Assembly: GCF_003443675.1 (NCBI RefSeq)
Contig: NZ_CP031963.1
Span: forward strand, 2,937,501-3,001,500
Source: Aquimarina sp. BL5
GTDB taxonomy: Bacteria > Bacteroidota > Bacteroidia > Flavobacteriales > Flavobacteriaceae
Reading direction: 5' to 3'
DNA length: 64,000 bases
Every line of letters begins with the position of its first letter. The first letter of the stretch is position 1. This document shows positions 56,136 through 64,000 of this stretch, piece after piece. The notes below the pieces were generated by a model. That model was given only the letters and a program-made list of their open reading frames with translations, made no database searches and was not told where the DNA came from. The translations under genes and the position numbers were made by a program.

Positions 56136-56306
56136 TTAAAACGGTCCACCAACTGGTCTGCATAAACATCCCGCACAGATGAATGGATGGTCGCACTCGC
56201 TATCTGATTGGCATTCAGAGTTTAAACCTCCTCCTCCATTAACAGATTGTTGTTGTTTTTTGTTTAATTCTTTTACTCCTTGTTGAGTTAAAATTGATTT
56301 TAACAT
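56136..56306 (-). CDS. small peptide precursor with GG leader, paralog 3
   Basis: 56 residues. Leader MLKSILTQQGVKELNKKQQQSV ends in NGGGG, then a 29-residue Cys-rich core (five cysteines: SECQSDSECDHPFICAGCLC) ending CRPVGGPF. Same kind of leader as the peptides at 1.3-1.7 kb and the one at 60.2 kb, but the core differs. It lies 89 bases downstream of the NHL lipoprotein gene on the same strand and ends in a strong terminator, so the pair is likely co-transcribed. No processing or export genes are nearby. Confidence 0.75.
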   Translation of the reverse strand: MLKSILTQQGVKELNKKQQQSVNGGGGLNSECQSDSECDHPFICAGCLCRPVGGPF

Positions 56307-56395
56307 AATAATTTGGTTTTAAGATTAATTTGTATTGTGAGAGTAAGTTACAAAATAAAATAGGAAAATTCCCCTAATTTATTAATGATCTAAAA
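56307..56395 (-). repeat. peptide upstream sequence, intact copy
   Basis: The 89 bases before the 56-residue peptide (minus strand: GGGGAATT, TTTTGTA, then AAATTAATCTTAAAACCAAA before the start) are closely repeated at about 59870-59945 next to the AraC gene, where no peptide start remains. They look like the upstream part of a duplicated cassette. Confidence 0.6.
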
Positions 56396-57316
56396 TTAAT
56401 ACTCAATGCTACTTTCAATAATTCTTAGATTACTTGTACCGGCATCCGAGACATATAAAACTTTACCATTTGAACTTGCCAAAATTCCATTTGGAAAATT
56501 AAACGTAGCTTCAGAAATATCTCCATCATCATTACCCAATGTACTTCCTGCAAATACCTCAACTTCATTTTCTTTGTTAAGATTGACTTTATAAATCTTA
56601 TGCTCTCCCAACTGAGTTGCAAAAAGAAAACCTTTCGCATATGTCAAAAACCCTAAAAAATTAGCATTTGGCCCTCCAGCAGGAAGCTCAGCAATAAAAG
56701 TCAGGTTTCCATCCTTGTATTTATAAATTTTTCTGTCGTTAAAATTTCCTATATACGTATTTCCTCTTCTGTCAAAGGCTATTCCGGCAGGCCCATTAAT
56801 AGGCGCTCCTTCGTATAATTTAGTAATTGTATTGTCTTCTGATAATATATTAATCGTATTGGTATTGTACTCTACAAATAACATATCATTAGTCCCTGGG
56901 ATTCGTTTTATACCAGCAGGAGAAATTGCAGGAATACTATCTAATTGCGTGCCTTCTTCTGAATACTTATAAATTGCGTTTCCAAAATTATCACATACAT
57001 AGACCTCATCATCTTTGTTAATTCCAATTCCATTTGGAGAGACTAAACCATTTGCAAAAACGGTCACTTCTCTAGAAGGAGTCATTTTATACACTGTATT
57101 CCCTACAAAATCTGACCCGTATAAATTTCCCTTACGATCTATAGCTAGCCCATCATAAAAAGCTCCGTCTGTAACCGTTTCTACTGTCGTTGTTATATTG
57201 GGTACTTCTCCCGGTCTGCAGGAAATAAATAATAAGGAAAAAAGAAAAACGGGTATAACCATGGAAGAATACATTGCTTTTTTAAGTGTCAAAAAATAAT
57301 TAACTGTTCGTTTCAT
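56396..57316 (-). CDS. NHL/SMP-30-like beta-propeller lipoprotein, paralog 1
   Basis: 306 residues. Lipobox LLFISCRPG (a start at MYSSMVIPVFLF is also possible). About six propeller blades of NHL/SMP-30/LRE type, each with DRxGNLYGSDFVGNTVYKM- or DDEVYVCDNFGNAIYKYSEEG-like units, ending with YVSDAGTSNLRIIES. It is close in sequence to the T9SS-secreted propeller just upstream, so the two are tandem paralogs with different anchoring: lipid here, T9SS there. Family relatives include gluconolactonases and peptide-amidating lyases; no activity can be claimed. Carries the shared 15-bp motif upstream. Confidence 0.75.
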   Translation of the reverse strand: MKRTVNYFLTLKKAMYSSMVIPVFLFSLLFISCRPGEVPNITTTVETVTDGAFYDGLAIDRKGNLYGSDFVGNTVYKMTPSREVTVFANGLVSPNGIGINKDDEVYVCDNFGNAIYKYSEEGTQLDSIPAISPAGIKRIPGTNDMLFVEYNTNTINILSEDNTITKLYEGAPINGPAGIAFDRRGNTYIGNFNDRKIYKYKDGNLTFIAELPAGGPNANFLGFLTYAKGFLFATQLGEHKIYKVNLNKENEVEVFAGSTLGNDDGDISEATFNFPNGILASSNGKVLYVSDAGTSNLRIIESSIEY

Positions 57317-57341
57317 TTGATGTAATTTTAAAAGTTATGCT

Positions 57342-57384
57342 CAAAATTGAATCAAAAGCGTTTAATAATCGACCGTGTGTATCC
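57342..57384 (-). promoter_or_regulatory. shared 15-bp motif and -7-like box, copy 1
   Basis: Minus strand: GGATACACACGGTCG (57370-57384), then 20 bases, then CAATTTTG (57342-57349), one base off TAnnTTTG. The NHL lipoprotein ATG follows at 57316. Same motif and spacing as copies at 58595, 59795 and 61441. Confidence 0.55.
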
Positions 57385-57423
57385 TGTAAAACCTTTTTTA
57401 ACGAATATTTTCCTAAAGAAGCT

Positions 57424-58548
57424 TTATTTGACTATCTTTTTTGATGTCCTATACGTACCTGATGTTATAAGCACTGTATATATTCCCGAACTCCAAGTGC
57501 TGGTATTTATATTTCTTTCAAAAGCTTTGGTTTCAAATGGATTTGATTCTGAAAAAATTCTTTGCCCAAGCGTATCATATACCGCTACATCAAAACTACT
57601 TTGTTCCAGAAGTACTCCTTTTATCGTTAACATTTCTGTTGATGGATTTGGATATAATAGTAGGGAAAAGTCAGCTTCTTTTAATTCATTGATGCTAAGA
57701 GTTACATCAGAAATTATTCTGAGATTTTTTGTTCCCGCATCACTTACATATATGGTCGCCCCATCTGGGCTAGCCAAAATACCATTAGGAAGATTAAATG
57801 TAGCATCTGCAACATTTCCATCCGCATTCCCAATAGTACTTCCTGCATATATCTCGAGATCATCCACGTTTTGAGGGTTAATCCGATAAACACGATGCTC
57901 TCCCAATTGAGTAGCATATAAAAATCCATTAGCATATGTCAAGAAACCTAAAAAATTGCTATTGATCCCCCCTGAGGGTAATTGCGCTACGTATGTCAAT
58001 ACTCCATTATCGTACTTATGAATTCTTCTATCGTTAAAATTTCCTATAAATATTGTACCACTATCATCAAATGCTATACCAGCCGGGCCATTTAACGGAC
58101 TCCCGGAAAATAGTTGAGTAATTGTCCCATCTGATGCAAGCAAGTTAATGGTATTATTACCGTAACCAACAAAAAGCATATCATCACTGTTCGGCATTTT
58201 TTTTATTCCAGCAGGAGTAAGCGTAGGGTAGCTAGCAAGTTCATCTCCCTGATCATTATATTTTAGTATTCTATTACTTTCATGATCACATATGTAAATT
58301 TCATTATTACTATTCACACCAATTCCGTTAGGTGTGTTTAGACCACTCACAAACGTGCTTACATTACCATTGACATCCAATTTAAAAACCGAATCACCTG
58401 AATAATCAGATCCATATAAATTTCCATTTATATCCAAAGCAAGTCCATCATGGAATAATCCTTCCATAACAGTAGTTACAGTTTGAGAATTTAAGCTAGC
58501 GGTTACTAATAAAAAAAGTAGAGCGTAGAGAGTTTTCATATCATTCAT
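57424..58548 (-). CDS. NHL/SMP-30-like beta-propeller, T9SS secreted, paralog 2
   Basis: 374 residues from ATG 58548 (MNDMKTLYALLFLL); the ATG three codons on (58539) is equally good, and a TTG at 58581 is not, as it would sit in the promoter. Signal peptide, then six NHL/SMP-30-type blades (DINGNLYGSDYSGDSVFKLD, NNEIYICDHESNRILKYNDQ) up to about residue 285, then a T9SS sorting domain (LLYPNPSTEMLTIKGVLL ... SGIYTVLITSGTYRTSKKIVK). Predicted to be exported to the cell surface. Close paralog of the lipoprotein downstream; no peptide gene follows directly. Confidence 0.8.
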   Translation of the reverse strand: MNDMKTLYALLFLLVTASLNSQTVTTVMEGLFHDGLALDINGNLYGSDYSGDSVFKLDVNGNVSTFVSGLNTPNGIGVNSNNEIYICDHESNRILKYNDQGDELASYPTLTPAGIKKMPNSDDMLFVGYGNNTINLLASDGTITQLFSGSPLNGPAGIAFDDSGTIFIGNFNDRRIHKYDNGVLTYVAQLPSGGINSNFLGFLTYANGFLYATQLGEHRVYRINPQNVDDLEIYAGSTIGNADGNVADATFNLPNGILASPDGATIYVSDAGTKNLRIISDVTLSINELKEADFSLLLYPNPSTEMLTIKGVLLEQSSFDVAVYDTLGQRIFSESNPFETKAFERNINTSTWSSGIYTVLITSGTYRTSKKIVK

Positions 58549-58566
58549 AATTTTTAAAATTAACTT

Positions 58567-58609
58567 CGAAACTAATTTCAAAAACTATGATAAACGACCG
58601 TTTGGATAC
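58567..58609 (-). promoter_or_regulatory. shared 15-bp motif and -7-like box, copy 2
   Basis: Minus strand: GTATCCAAACGGTCG (58595-58609), then 20 bases, then TAGTTTCG (58567-58574), one base off TAnnTTTG. It precedes the T9SS-secreted propeller (start at 58548). Same as copies 1, 3 and 4. Confidence 0.6.
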
Positions 58610-58624
58610 AGTAATACTAATTTA

Positions 58625-59743
58625 TTATACTATTCCCATTTTCTTTATATAATTACTTGGGGTATCATTCTTGATCATTTTGAAAGCTTTATTAAAAGTT
58701 GATTTTGAATTAAAACCCGAATCTAATGACAAAGCCAAAATGGTATGATTAAAGTGTTCTCCCTTTTGAATTTTAGAAATAAACTCTTGGACTCTATACT
58801 TATTTATATAATCATAAAAACTACAGTTATGTATATTATTAAGTAACCAAGATACATTGTTCGTAGAAGTATTTAGTTCTTCAGAGAGATCCTTTAATGT
58901 AAGTTCATTATTAAGATATATTTTTTTACGAACCATAAGATCTTCTAAGTTCTTTTTTAGTATTTCTAATTCTTCACCATTCAATCTCCCTTTTTGGGCT
59001 TCTTTTTTCTTTATGAGTGGAACTCTAAATATTTCAGGCTGTTTTAAACTAAAAAAACCTACGATATAAATAAATATGGGAATGGTCATCCAGATTAAAT
59101 GATAGCTGATGAAACGCAACTCTTTAAACCTCATAAAATAGTTAGCATAGCTTATTACCCATAGCATCAAGAAAATTGAAATTCCAAATAAAAAAAACTT
59201 TAGGAAAGTCTGTACTTTCTGCGAATAAGAAAGATTAGCTTTTTCTGCTGTTTTATAAATTCTAAGTAGATGATATGATTTAATCATATACACCAAATTG
59301 CTTATCAAACCAACAGTCTCTACAATGAAATATATAAAGTTAAGAGTTCCTTGTCCAACCAAGATTTTAAATTCTTCTGTGGTATAAAATAATGTCCAAC
59401 TAAAAAACACTATATGAACAAAAGCCGGAATAAAATGATACCACGGAATCTTATAATTTGGAGATTCATAAAAAGTTAATCTTCTTATATAGGTGTAGAA
59501 TAAAGGTCCGAAAACAAAAATCAAAGTATCTACAAACCCTGCAATTCTGGAAAACAAAGGTCCTGAGAATCGTGGGTAAAATATTCTACCTACAAGCATT
59601 AGAGAAGCTATTAACAAAATAAAAGACAAAACCTTATTCGCTGGTTTGTTTTTATTATGAATTAATGAAAGTGTAATAGCAAGAAAAACCCCTTGACTAA
59701 TTCCTAAGACAAATAATAAATCTACTATTCCAAAAGAATTCAT
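58625..59743 (-). CDS. AraC family regulator with membrane sensor domain
   Basis: 372 residues. About seven hydrophobic helices in the first 240 residues (for example 5-27, 37-55, 70-90, 103-122, 132-157, 182-205 and 215-235), giving an integral membrane N-terminus, then an AraC HTH domain (about 270-368): LTLKDLSEELNTSTNNVSWLLNNIHN, YRVQEFISKIQKGEHFNHTILALSLDSGFNSKSTFNKAFK. Membrane AraC proteins of this form are common in Bacteroidota; the sensed signal is unknown. It is itself preceded by the same 15-bp motif as the three propeller genes, so it may regulate itself and them. A partial paralog sits at 63452. Confidence 0.88.
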   Translation of the reverse strand: MNSFGIVDLLFVLGISQGVFLAITLSLIHNKNKPANKVLSFILLIASLMLVGRIFYPRFSGPLFSRIAGFVDTLIFVFGPLFYTYIRRLTFYESPNYKIPWYHFIPAFVHIVFFSWTLFYTTEEFKILVGQGTLNFIYFIVETVGLISNLVYMIKSYHLLRIYKTAEKANLSYSQKVQTFLKFFLFGISIFLMLWVISYANYFMRFKELRFISYHLIWMTIPIFIYIVGFFSLKQPEIFRVPLIKKKEAQKGRLNGEELEILKKNLEDLMVRKKIYLNNELTLKDLSEELNTSTNNVSWLLNNIHNCSFYDYINKYRVQEFISKIQKGEHFNHTILALSLDSGFNSKSTFNKAFKMIKNDTPSNYIKKMGIV

Positions 59744-59766
59744 ATATGCAGTTAAAAGTTATATTT

Positions 59767-59809
59767 CAAATCTAAATAAATTTAGATATATCAGCGACCG
59801 ATTGGGTAC
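59767..59809 (-). promoter_or_regulatory. shared 15-bp motif and -7 box, copy 3
   Basis: Minus strand: GTACCCAATCGGTCG (59795-59809), then 20 bases, then TAGATTTG (59767-59774), a perfect TAnnTTTG box, 24 bases before the AraC ATG at 59743. The perfect -7 box here anchors the spacing in the other three copies. Confidence 0.65.
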
Positions 59810-59869
59810 ACAAATACTTCTTACTATAAACAATCTTATACTATAAAAGTCACAGTTGTTCTTAATTCA

Positions 59870-59945
59870 ACAGTTAATAATTTAGTTTTAAGATTAATTT
59901 ATATTCAACAATAGGATACGTACAAAAGAAGAGAATTCCCCTTTT
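59870..59945 (-). repeat. decayed copy of peptide upstream sequence
   Basis: Aligns with 56305-56376: shared words AATTTNGTTTTAAGATTAATTT and, further up, GGGGAATT with TTTTGTAC. The position that holds the ATG in the intact copy reads CAG here, so no peptide can start. It is left over from a duplicated peptide cassette between the AraC gene and the intact peptide at 60017-60226. Confidence 0.5.
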
Positions 59946-59961
59946 TTAAAGAGTTTTTCAT

Positions 59962-59997
59962 AAAACCTGAAGAATAATAAACGATTCTTCAGGTTTT
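59962..59997 (-). terminator. terminator after the 69-residue peptide gene
   Basis: AAAACCTGAAGAAT (59962-59975) pairs perfectly with ATTCTTCAGGTTTT (59984-59997) around 8 bases, with runs of A/T outside. Ends the minus-strand peptide transcript 19 bases after its stop. Confidence 0.85.
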
Positions 59998-60016
59998 GTT
60001 TTATTTATGATGCTTC

Positions 60017-60226
60017 TTATACTCCGTCACATTGCGCTCCTGCACCACCACAGTTTGAATTCATGTCTTGTAACGCATCAATTAATGTTCCTTCTAGATA
60101 GATATAGCCATTTCCACCTCCCTCAAATCCGCAAGTACATACAAAACGTTGTCCTGCTATAATTACTTTTTGTTTGCTCTTGGTAAGAATTTCTATACCT
60201 TCTAATTTCAAAATGTTTTGTAACAT
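60017..60226 (-). CDS. small peptide precursor, GG-leader-type, paralog 4
   Basis: 69 residues. MLQNILKLEGIEILTKSKQKVI is the same leader type as the other three peptides, though the GG site reads IAGQ. The core (about 43 residues) is Gly-rich with four cysteines (Cys29, 31, 59, 65) and ends NCGGAGAQCDGV. The full pseudoknot-like element and its TTCGCGAA block precede it; a strong terminator follows. No modification or export genes nearby. Secreted peptide of unknown function. Confidence 0.7.
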   Translation of the reverse strand: MLQNILKLEGIEILTKSKQKVIIAGQRFVCTCGFEGGGNGYIYLEGTLIDALQDMNSNCGGAGAQCDGV

Positions 60227-60252
60227 AATTTTTGATTTTAAAAATGATTAAT

Positions 60253-60287
60253 TCCGAACATTTTATAGACAGTCAGGATTTTGTCTA
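60253..60287 (-). promoter_or_regulatory. pseudoknot-like upstream element, copy C
   Basis: Minus strand: TAGACA, AAATCCTGAC, TGTCTA, TAAAATGT, TCGGA. TAGACA/TGTCTA is a perfect 6-bp stem; TCCTGA pairs with TCGGA through a single bulged T. It ends 26 bases before the peptide start. Together with copies A (1745-1777) and B (53515-53547) the stems keep pairing while bases change, but three copies are too few for a covariation test. Confidence 0.5.
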
Positions 60288-60346
60288 CTCTTCGCGAATG
60301 AGGTTTGTTACTTAAAAGTTCCTAATACTATTTTTTGTTACCCATA
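60288..60346 (-). promoter_or_regulatory. shared upstream block with TTCGCGAA palindrome, copy C
   Basis: Same word order as copy B: CTC-ATTCGCGAA-GAG with the palindrome at 60291-60298, then AGTAA, GGAACTT and GGGTAACAAAAA. Lies directly upstream of the pseudoknot-like element of the 69-residue peptide. Confidence 0.5.
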
Positions 60347-60350
60347 ACTA

Positions 60351-60386
60351 AAAAAAGATCGAAATCTTCATGTCTCGATCTTTTTT
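60351..60386 (-). terminator. terminator of the decayed peptide cassette
   Basis: AAAAAAGATCGA (60351-60362) pairs perfectly with TCGATCTTTTTT (60375-60386). It matches the position and flanks (AATATTCGAATTAGCCT) of the terminator at 56066-56098, so it belongs to the broken peptide copy at 60412-60441 and the NHL gene before it. Confidence 0.8.
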
Positions 60387-60411
60387 AATATTCGAATTAG
60401 CCTTACATTAA

Positions 60412-60441
60412 TTAAACAGGTTCACCAATTGGTCTGCACAA
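60412..60441 (-). pseudogene. remnant of a GG peptide C-terminus
   Basis: Minus strand, one frame reads LCRPIGEPV then stop, against LCRPVGGPF stop at the end of the peptide at 56136-56306. Leader and most of the core are missing; the remnant follows the NHL gene stop at 60466 within about 25 bases. With the terminator at 60351-60386 it is the decayed half of an NHL-peptide cassette. Confidence 0.6.
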
Positions 60442-60465
60442 ACTCCTTTACCTTGTAATACAGGA

Positions 60466-61389
60466 TTAATAGGGTTTTAAATCAATTTTACGTAGTCCTC
60501 CGGCTCCCGTATATTCTGAAATATATAACGTTTTTGTTCTTTTATTTGCTGCTATACCATTAGGATTACTAAAAGATGCTTCTAGTAATAGTCCATCTAC
60601 TTGCGCAGCTTCTCCATTACCTGCAATTATTTCAATTTTACCATTCATGGTTACTTTATAAACATAATTTACAGCTATCCCAGTAGCAAAAATAACATCG
60701 TTAATTACAGTGATATAACCGATACCAAAATTCTGAATAACGATATCAGGAATATTCGCTATTAGTGAAATTTCACCATTTTTATCGATTGAATAGATGT
60801 CAGCTGTATAAAAATTTGCCACGATTACATTTCCCTTACTATCTAAATCAATTCCAACTCCTCCTAATAACCTTGGATCGTTCGCATATTCTATCACTTC
60901 ACCTGTAGCAGAAATTTTATGTACTGTTGGTACAGTATAATTAGAAATATAAAGATTGTCCTGTCTATCAATTGTCATACTACTAGGCCAACCATCAATT
61001 GTAGTAATCACTTCTCTTTCTCCTGTAGGTGTAATTTTTAGAACCTGGCCATTAATCGTATTATTTGCATTGTTTACAAATAAATTTCCTTTAGAGTCTT
61101 TTGCTGTACCCATAGGACCAGATAAACCTTGTATTGTGTCTAAGATTCTTCCTCTAGCATCTAACTTAAAAACTCGAGTTCCACTGCCACCAGTATCAAC
61201 GAATCTGCCATACTCTGAAACGTACACATCTCCATTTCTGTCAACAGATACAGCCCCATTCGCTGCAAAATTGCTGACAATTGTTTCTACTTCTAATTTA
61301 GTATCAATACCATCTCCATAACAAGAAATTAGTGCTATTAACACACTGCATAAGGAAATCCATTTGAATGTTCTTTTAAAATGTTTCAT
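60466..61389 (-). CDS. NHL/SMP-30-like beta-propeller lipoprotein, paralog 3
   Basis: 307 residues. Lipobox LISCYGDG. Blades of NHL type (DRNGDVYVSEYGRFVDTGGSGTRVFKLDARG, DSKGNLFVNNANNTINGQVLKITPTG, DRQDNLYISNYTVPTVHKIS), ending LYISEYTGAGGLRKIDL. More distant from the 56-58 kb pair but of the same family. A peptide-gene remnant and terminator follow its stop, the same order as the intact cassette at 56-57 kb. Shared 15-bp motif upstream. Confidence 0.75.
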   Translation of the reverse strand: MKHFKRTFKWISLCSVLIALISCYGDGIDTKLEVETIVSNFAANGAVSVDRNGDVYVSEYGRFVDTGGSGTRVFKLDARGRILDTIQGLSGPMGTAKDSKGNLFVNNANNTINGQVLKITPTGEREVITTIDGWPSSMTIDRQDNLYISNYTVPTVHKISATGEVIEYANDPRLLGGVGIDLDSKGNVIVANFYTADIYSIDKNGEISLIANIPDIVIQNFGIGYITVINDVIFATGIAVNYVYKVTMNGKIEIIAGNGEAAQVDGLLLEASFSNPNGIAANKRTKTLYISEYTGAGGLRKIDLKPY

Positions 61390-61411
61390 AATAATAATTT
61401 TAAAGTTTCTC

Positions 61412-61455
61412 CAATATTAATTCCTAATCACATTACAAATCAACGCTTTGGGCAC
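61412..61455 (-). promoter_or_regulatory. shared 15-bp motif and -7-like box, copy 4
   Basis: Minus strand: GTGCCCAAAGCGTTG (61441-61455), then 21 bases, then TAATATTG (61412-61419), one base off TAnnTTTG. It is the most diverged copy but keeps the position before the third propeller gene (ATG 61389). Confidence 0.5.
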
Positions 61456-61590
61456 ACTAAGACGTTGTTCTCATTTTTATATGTCCACAAATTGTGGATA
61501 TATAAAAACTATAATGATCAAGGAGAAATATTCATCTCTAAAACCAAAAATTACAGGTGTATGTCTACATATTATTTTTGAAGTTTATTA

Positions 61591-63451: not shown

Positions 63452-64000
63452 TTAAATACTGGACATCTTTTTGATATAATTGCTAGGTGTATCTTCTAAT
63501 ATTGTCTTAAAAGCTTTGTTAAAAGTTGATTTAGAATTAAATCCAGAATCAAACGACAATGCTAAAATAGTATGTTGCTCGTGTTCTCCTTTTTGGATCT
63601 TAGCGATGAACTCTTGTAACCTATATTTATTGATGTATTCGTAAAAGTTACACTTATGTATTTTATTTAGAAACCACGATAAATCGTTAGAAGATACTTT
63701 TAGTTCTGCAGCTAGTTTTCTGAGGGTAAGATTTGGATTCAGATAAACTTTATCAACAATTAACAAATGCTCTAATGAACTAGTAAGTGTTTCGATTTTA
63801 TCTTTCCCAAGCCTATCTCTGGTTAGATCTTTTTTGGGATAAAAAATAGGTACTCTAAAAATTTCTGGTTGTTTAAAACTATAAAAACCTACAACATACA
63901 TTATTACAGGAACACATGACCAAACAACGTTGTAATTAAAATATAGGTTATATACACCCATTCCAAAAGTTATGGTAAGATTTAAAAACCAGCAAAACGT
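63452..64000 (-). CDS. AraC family membrane regulator (partial)
   Basis: The frame is open to the right edge of the window, so the N-terminus is missing. The visible 182 residues hold one hydrophobic helix and an AraC HTH domain (LTLRKLAAELKVSSNDLSWFLNKIHKCNFYEYINKY, IQKGEHEQHTILALSFDSGFNSKSTFNKAFK). It is a clear paralog of the regulator at 58625-59743. The DUF4440/serine hydrolase pair follows on the same strand and may be regulated by it. Confidence 0.88.
   Translation of the reverse strand, partial: TFCWFLNLTITFGMGVYNLYFNYNVVWSCVPVIMYVVGFYSFKQPEIFRVPIFYPKKDLTRDRLGKDKIETLTSSLEHLLIVDKVYLNPNLTLRKLAAELKVSSNDLSWFLNKIHKCNFYEYINKYRLQEFIAKIQKGEHEQHTILALSFDSGFNSKSTFNKAFKTILEDTPSNYIKKMSSI

Follow-up and report, generated by a model that had tools for sequence, protein, structure and literature searches.

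A conserved 24-bp element at the -33 position of promoters for a predicted membrane-anchored AraC regulator and its neighbouring propeller genes in Aquimarina

The DNA analysed here, called the window, is a stretch of 64,000 nucleotides from Aquimarina sp. BL5 (G000:C1:2937501-3001500; G000, the source genome, is a single contig of 6.01 Mb). In it, a common element precedes the genes of three propeller proteins and of an AraC-type regulator, AraC1. By sequence, the regulatory site itself is well established, as are the positions of the sites, their spacing, their conservation and their confinement to AraC cassettes. The signal is genuine and is kept in related marine bacteria, so that autoregulation by AraC and control of its neighbours through this element are very probable: AraC1, with seven predicted transmembrane helices (7-TM), and its paralog AraC2 most probably bind it at the -33 position and activate their own genes, the adjacent propeller genes and, in several species, genes of peptides with a double-glycine (GG) leader. 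We strongly infer that AraC is the binder, and we infer that it activates rather than represses and that its seven-helix domain senses an extracellular signal.

The first-pass annotation had proposed a local regulon from four minus-strand 15-mers, each followed by a -7-like box. Read directly in the sequence, all four pairs are present, separated by 20, 20, 20 and 21 bp as claimed, and the case as a whole has proved stronger than first put. The promoters and the regulator genes are the following.

57335..57399, minus strand: site and promoter of propeller 1; 15-mer 57370-57384, -7-like box CAATTTTG at 57342-57349
58561..58624, minus strand: site and promoter of propeller 2; 15-mer 58595-58609, -7-like box TAGTTTCG at 58567-58574
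58625..59743, minus strand: AraC1; seven predicted transmembrane helices, then an AraC-type DNA-binding domain
59761..59823, minus strand: site and promoter of AraC1; 15-mer 59795-59809, -7 box TAGATTTG at 59767-59774
61405..61469, minus strand: site and promoter of propeller 3; 15-mer 61441-61455, -7-like box TAATATTG at 61412-61419
63452..64000, minus strand: C-terminal part of AraC2, a paralog 47% identical to AraC1; the gene begins, and has its site, outside the window

The count of four is right for the window and has to be amended to five for the genome: GTGCCCAATCGGTCG, then 20 bp, then TAGATTTG, stands upstream of AraC2 at G000:C1:3002128-3002142, about 630 bp past the window end. The boxes of AraC1 and AraC2 match the fixed positions of TAnnTTTG at 6/6 and the three propeller boxes at 5/6.

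The 15-mer captured the core of the element but was too short. Across 28 representatives, information is confined to the blocks GTnYGA, TGTAYCCA and CGGTCGA and to the -7 box, so that the upstream box and the 3' A had been missed. The full element has 24 bp, GTnYGA-n-TGTAYCCA-nn-CGGTCGA, and is followed by the spacer, which is silent (0.19 bit per position), and by TAnnTTTG. Its last block, CGGTCGA, sits where the -33 element is expected, as had been noted from the end of the 15-mer, and in alignment A1 nearly every site has GTCG or GTTG at this position. An ordinary -33 element would read TTTG; because GTCG or GTTG stands in its place, the promoters look activator-dependent. The -7 box, at a constant distance of 20-21 bp, is of the sigma-A type, for which PMC9723704 gives the flavobacterial consensus TAnnTTTG.

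The argument that so many copies are hard to reconcile with chance holds for the full element, whose five strong genome sites all lie here, and is weaker than thought for the 15-mer alone. At up to three mismatches, GTAYCCAAWCGGTCG found 3 matches in the window against 1.33 expected (18 of 100 shuffles reach 3) and 136 genome-wide against 151 in the reversed control; this search was rejected as proof since the control was not exceeded. At 0-1 mismatch the 15-mer occurs at three places in 6.01 Mb, all inside 6,047 bp, two of them in the window and the third at G000:C1:3002128-3002142 before the second AraC gene; were matches placed uniformly, such clustering would have a probability of about 3e-6. 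Three mismatches separate the copy at 57370 from the pattern, and that at 61441 is not matched by it; both are established by the comparative data. A short rule, CGGTCG-N20/21-TAnnTTTG, had three matches in G000, each beside an AraC gene, and was set aside as too weak alone, with 51 matches genus-wide against 40 in the reversed control.

A genus-trained model from 54 distinct sites (R1) detected five strong sites in G000, all in this cluster: those of propeller 1 (45.4 bits, E 3.6e-11), propeller 2 (42.7 bits), AraC2 (39.7 bits), AraC1 (39.0 bits) and propeller 3 (33.0 bits, the most divergent copy). The next-best match, at 18.0 bits, lies between a distant AraC relative of 27% identity, which it directly follows, and a peptidase S41 family gene. 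A genome-wide search of the kind suggested in the first-pass annotation confined the strong sites to one cluster, and the many unrelated copies outside a promoter context that would have spoken against a regulon were not found with the full element. A held-out model, R2, built from 14 sites of 12 loci not named Aquimarina, placed propeller 2 (39 bits), AraC1 (27 bits), propeller 1 (24.9 bits) and AraC2 (21.9 bits) at ranks 1 to 4 and propeller 3 at rank 6; rank 5 went to the site that follows the distant AraC gene at 325 kb.

Comparison within the genus tied the element to the regulator. We defined the AraC1 subfamily as relatives of 43-88% identity (62 genes in 41 of 66 same-genus genomes; 15 listed matches of 34-37% were excluded). 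The element was present in all 41 genomes with the subfamily and in 1 of the 25 without; when only the 44 genomes outside the training set are counted, the figures are 19/19 and 1/25, with 49 matches in 20 genomes. The genus scan, which used stricter filters than the G000 scan and classified only matches at E <=1e-3, leaving out weaker ones (0.001-0.05), returned 116 matches. Of these, 113 were on the strand of a subfamily gene and no more than 12 kb from it, in agreement with a local regulon, and 45 of the 62 subfamily genes had a match immediately upstream. In G085, the one genome that is positive although it lacks the subfamily, the site stands between a 32% AraC relative, which it directly follows, and a 196-aa lipoprotein-like gene; the two other far matches (G028, G013) precede propeller-2-like genes (46-47%) on other contigs. 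No such site was seen in the 9 upstream regions inspected of the 34-37% AraC clade.

Gene order was compared in 25 loci, one of G000 and 24 of relatives (23 genomes). Next after AraC there is usually a propeller gene, which often has a GG-type peptide gene behind it; in some cases another AraC or other genes come next. The 15-mer scored at least 8 bits in 59 of 71 regions upstream of AraC and propeller genes, with a matrix trained on these same 71 regions (99th percentile of shuffles 6.7 bits; highest shuffle and highest opposite-strand score both 15.4). In nearly all of the 59 a box lies 20 or 21 bp downstream, and the ATG follows mostly at 44-54 bp.

The association extends to other genera. 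Among 80 AraC-relative loci retrieved, 19 of them annotated and some from metagenome-assembled genomes of unchecked genus, 13 annotated loci, none named Aquimarina, hold the AraC-propeller pair. R1, trained on the genus only, found a site in the gap between the two genes at E <1e-3 in 9 of these 13 and upstream of AraC in two more (L186, L189); L191 gave a weak match (E 0.07), and L194, from Polaribacter, had no site by R1. Neither did R1 find one in four loci without an adjacent propeller (L170, L188, L192, L193), nor was there a site at E <0.05 in seven further loci (L196-L202) or in 41 others (L205-L245). A scan of 249 genomes of the family gave 13 matches at E 1e-3 outside G000, in 11 genomes of other genera. 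Ten lie directly behind an AraC relative: in eight of these the next gene is a propeller, and in two, where the relative is 30-31% identical, it codes for an S41-domain protein in one and an esterase in the other. Of the remaining three, one stands before an unlinked propeller and two have neither AraC nor propeller context.

Some features of these loci stand apart. In L176, L178, L182 and L204, none named Aquimarina, the AraC gene's own promoter shows by eye a partly inverted variant, for example GTAYCA-n-TGTACCCA-TGATAC, without CGGTCG. The Kordia loci L188 and L192 have AraC relatives beside several small GG-motif peptides, with a GTGTGAATGTGTACAATCG stretch upstream of one peptide. In G000 itself, the distant AraC relative (27-28%) of L129 1668-4252 (G000:C1 about 323667-326251) is followed by CATTCGGTCGA-N20-TATGTTTG and then by a secreted peptidase S41 family protein. 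This arrangement has an ortholog in G017 (L160) and is perhaps a second circuit of the same kind.

AraC1 has the AraC-type double helix-turn-helix (HTH) of the AraC/XylS family: HTH_18 matched at E 2.4e-11 (44.2 bits, cut-off 33.6) and HTH_AraC just below its cut-off (25.7 against 26.6 bits). Seven helices are predicted both from hydrophobic stretches and in the AlphaFold model (mean pLDDT 85.0), where they span residues 6-27, 33-55, 62-90, 101-118, 133-170, 176-204 and 214-234 ahead of a C-terminal HTH. With a DNA-binding domain and predicted transmembrane segments in one chain, AraC1 would be a transmembrane transcription regulator (TTR). Comparison of the model by fold gave no match at E <=0.001; the matches shown were to AraC-type domains (best E 7.7e-3) and, weakly, to many 7-TM receptors. 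No kinase or receiver family was matched in the profile search. As to the recognition helix, an Asn was present in 26/26 loci with a site, and 11/11 loci with a Tyr were site-less, including Polaribacter, which keeps the gene pair; 6 of the 80 loci were unclassifiable, and the comparison is biased because loci were picked with the pattern GFNSKSTF, which covers part of the helix.

The element would then be the DNA site, of about 24 bp, of a membrane-anchored AraC, its three conserved blocks about one helical turn apart, with CGGTCGA in place of the -33 element and a sigma-A-type -7 box 20 (sometimes 21) bp further on. Once bound, the cytoplasmic AraC domain would recruit RNA polymerase to promoters without a good -33 element, a class-II-like activation. 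In this way AraC would increase the production of AraC itself, of the secreted propellers encoded alongside and, in several relatives, of a GG-leader peptide that lies behind the propeller and has a site of its own.

Several observations weigh against this activation model. Two AraC paralogs share one site type. At propeller 3, the score with R2 was 15.9 bits against a background of 15.8. No E 1e-3 match stood immediately upstream of 17 of the 62 subfamily AraC genes, and in the window the peptide gene behind propeller 1, pep1, has no site of its own. The recognition-helix Asn was rejected as a sufficient determinant, as 37 loci carry it and have no site. Finally, genomes and loci are related, and the counts are therefore not independent.

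A rather unlikely alternative is that AraC binds the element but represses, blocking RNA polymerase at -33 on its own and the propeller promoters until a signal releases it. A site over the -33 region can block polymerase as well, and the partly inverted variant seen by eye before AraC in L176, L178, L182 and L204 would suit such autorepression; the GTCG or GTTG that replaces TTTG gives the promoters the look of needing an activator instead. We consider it improbable that an unlinked regulator reads the element and that the AraC genes are merely among its targets. In its favour, one element is common to two AraC paralogs, and AraC is a predicted binder; against it, presence of the element tracks the AraC subfamily over 66 genomes, in line with the proposed link between motif and AraC, and the site also stands directly behind distant AraC relatives (27-32%) whose neighbours differ.

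The first-pass annotation had also left room for an unusual -33 region. The idea that an alternative sigma factor uses the element as its -33 element would fit the place of the last block and the constant spacing, but is very improbable given a -7 box of the sigma-A kind (PMC9723704), an extension of 24 bp upstream of the -33 position in three blocks, and five strong genome copies in a single cluster. We give hardly any weight to functionless leftovers of a duplication of genes with their promoters: the AraC1 and AraC2 promoters are alike beyond the motif and propellers 1 and 2 are paralogs, but mean identity among the five sites is 47% in the spacers against 72% in the motif, sites also precede unlinked propellers and non-propeller genes, and conservation across genera opposes a full account of this sort, so the earlier judgement that simple duplication is inadequate stands.

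The remaining genes of the cluster are these.

56136..56306, minus strand: pep1, a 56-aa GG-motif peptide behind propeller 1
56396..57316, minus strand: propeller 1 (SGL/NHL type); Pfam SGL 4.6e-13; lipoprotein-like signal (by eye)
57424..58581, minus strand: propeller 2 (NHL); Pfam NHL 3.1e-13; C-terminal sorting domain of the type IX secretion system, Por_Secre_tail 2.1e-14
60017-60226, minus strand: pep2, a GG/AG-type peptide
60466..61389, minus strand: propeller 3 (NHL/SGL type); Pfam NHL 1.2e-06, SGL 1.9e-06; lipoprotein-like signal (by eye)

In the direction of minus-strand transcription the order is AraC2, a DUF4440 protein, a beta-lactamase-family (serine hydrolase-like) protein, propeller 3, pep2, AraC1, propeller 2, propeller 1 and pep1. 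Both peptides have MLKSIL/MLQNIL leaders, a GG or AG motif and Cys-containing cores. For pep1 we found 6 homologs at E <=0.001, and the two that carry names are from Aquimarina. Neither peptide matched curated GG-leader or lanthipeptide precursor models; from Kordia, part of a peptide encoded close to an AraC relative scored 19.9 bits with lant_leader_L1a (cut-off 22). Transcription of pep1 may start at the propeller 1 promoter. In seven loci of relatives (L071, L074, L076, L077, L079, L139, L140) and possibly in L144, GG-type peptides have an upstream site to themselves, 130-153 bp from the ATG, and in G015 and G072 further secreted proteins follow sites. No PADLOC match to anti-phage defence was obtained for five proteins.

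Three further observations concern these regions. A GGGGAATTTTCC-like element at about 56363-56374, upstream of pep1, recurs in several relatives. Between AraC1 and pep2, at about 59932-59942, we noticed by eye another GGGGAATT copy, followed by a similar stretch but by no peptide start, perhaps the leader of a decayed peptide gene. In G015 (L075 15187-19597), beside another AraC gene, a site precedes a 346-aa protein and then a 1096-aa protein, whose sequence we take to be YD-repeat-like.

Class II activators of the AraC/XylS family (AraC, RhaS, MarA type) have sites that adjoin or replace the -35/-33 element at fixed spacing. AraC1 resembles them in its double HTH, fixed-spacing site and predicted control of itself and adjacent genes; they have a soluble ligand domain, whereas AraC1 has a predicted seven-helix membrane domain, Bacteroidota -33/-7 promoters and predicted binding. 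The hybrid two-component systems of Bacteroides, which have an AraC output, likewise carry an AraC-type HTH on a membrane sensor, but AraC1 has no matched kinase or receiver family. They are mentioned as hybrid TTRs in a survey (PMC10269533), by which TTRs, like AraC1, join a membrane sensor and a DNA-binding domain in one chain; AraC1 differs from those described there in its AraC-type domain, its defined putative site and its nearly all-local predicted regulon. The term AraC is absent from the main text of the survey, which calls the promoter action of membrane-tethered regulators poorly understood. Compared with flavobacterial sigma-A promoters, as presented in PMC9723704, the -7 box is the same but the 24-bp element replaces the ordinary -33 region. 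Titles and abstract openings in the open-licence literature yielded no direct precedent for the motif or its pairing with AraC.

A more speculative extension, to which we give a small chance, is that of a self-contained cassette in which the seven-helix receptor fused to the AraC domain senses an extracellular cue from its own targets, the GG-leader peptide and/or a surface propeller, in a one-protein, quorum-like positive loop. Under such self-signalling, confinement of the regulator to the membrane would keep its regulon to neighbouring genes. This proximity idea is testable, since nearly all predicted targets adjoin the regulator gene, within a few kilobases of it, with a few natural exceptions elsewhere in the genome. 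For a group of membrane-anchored AraC regulators, the element amounts to a DNA code that is precise and can be tested; it would also place secreted propellers and Cys-rich GG-leader peptides of Flavobacteriaceae in one regulatory circuit.

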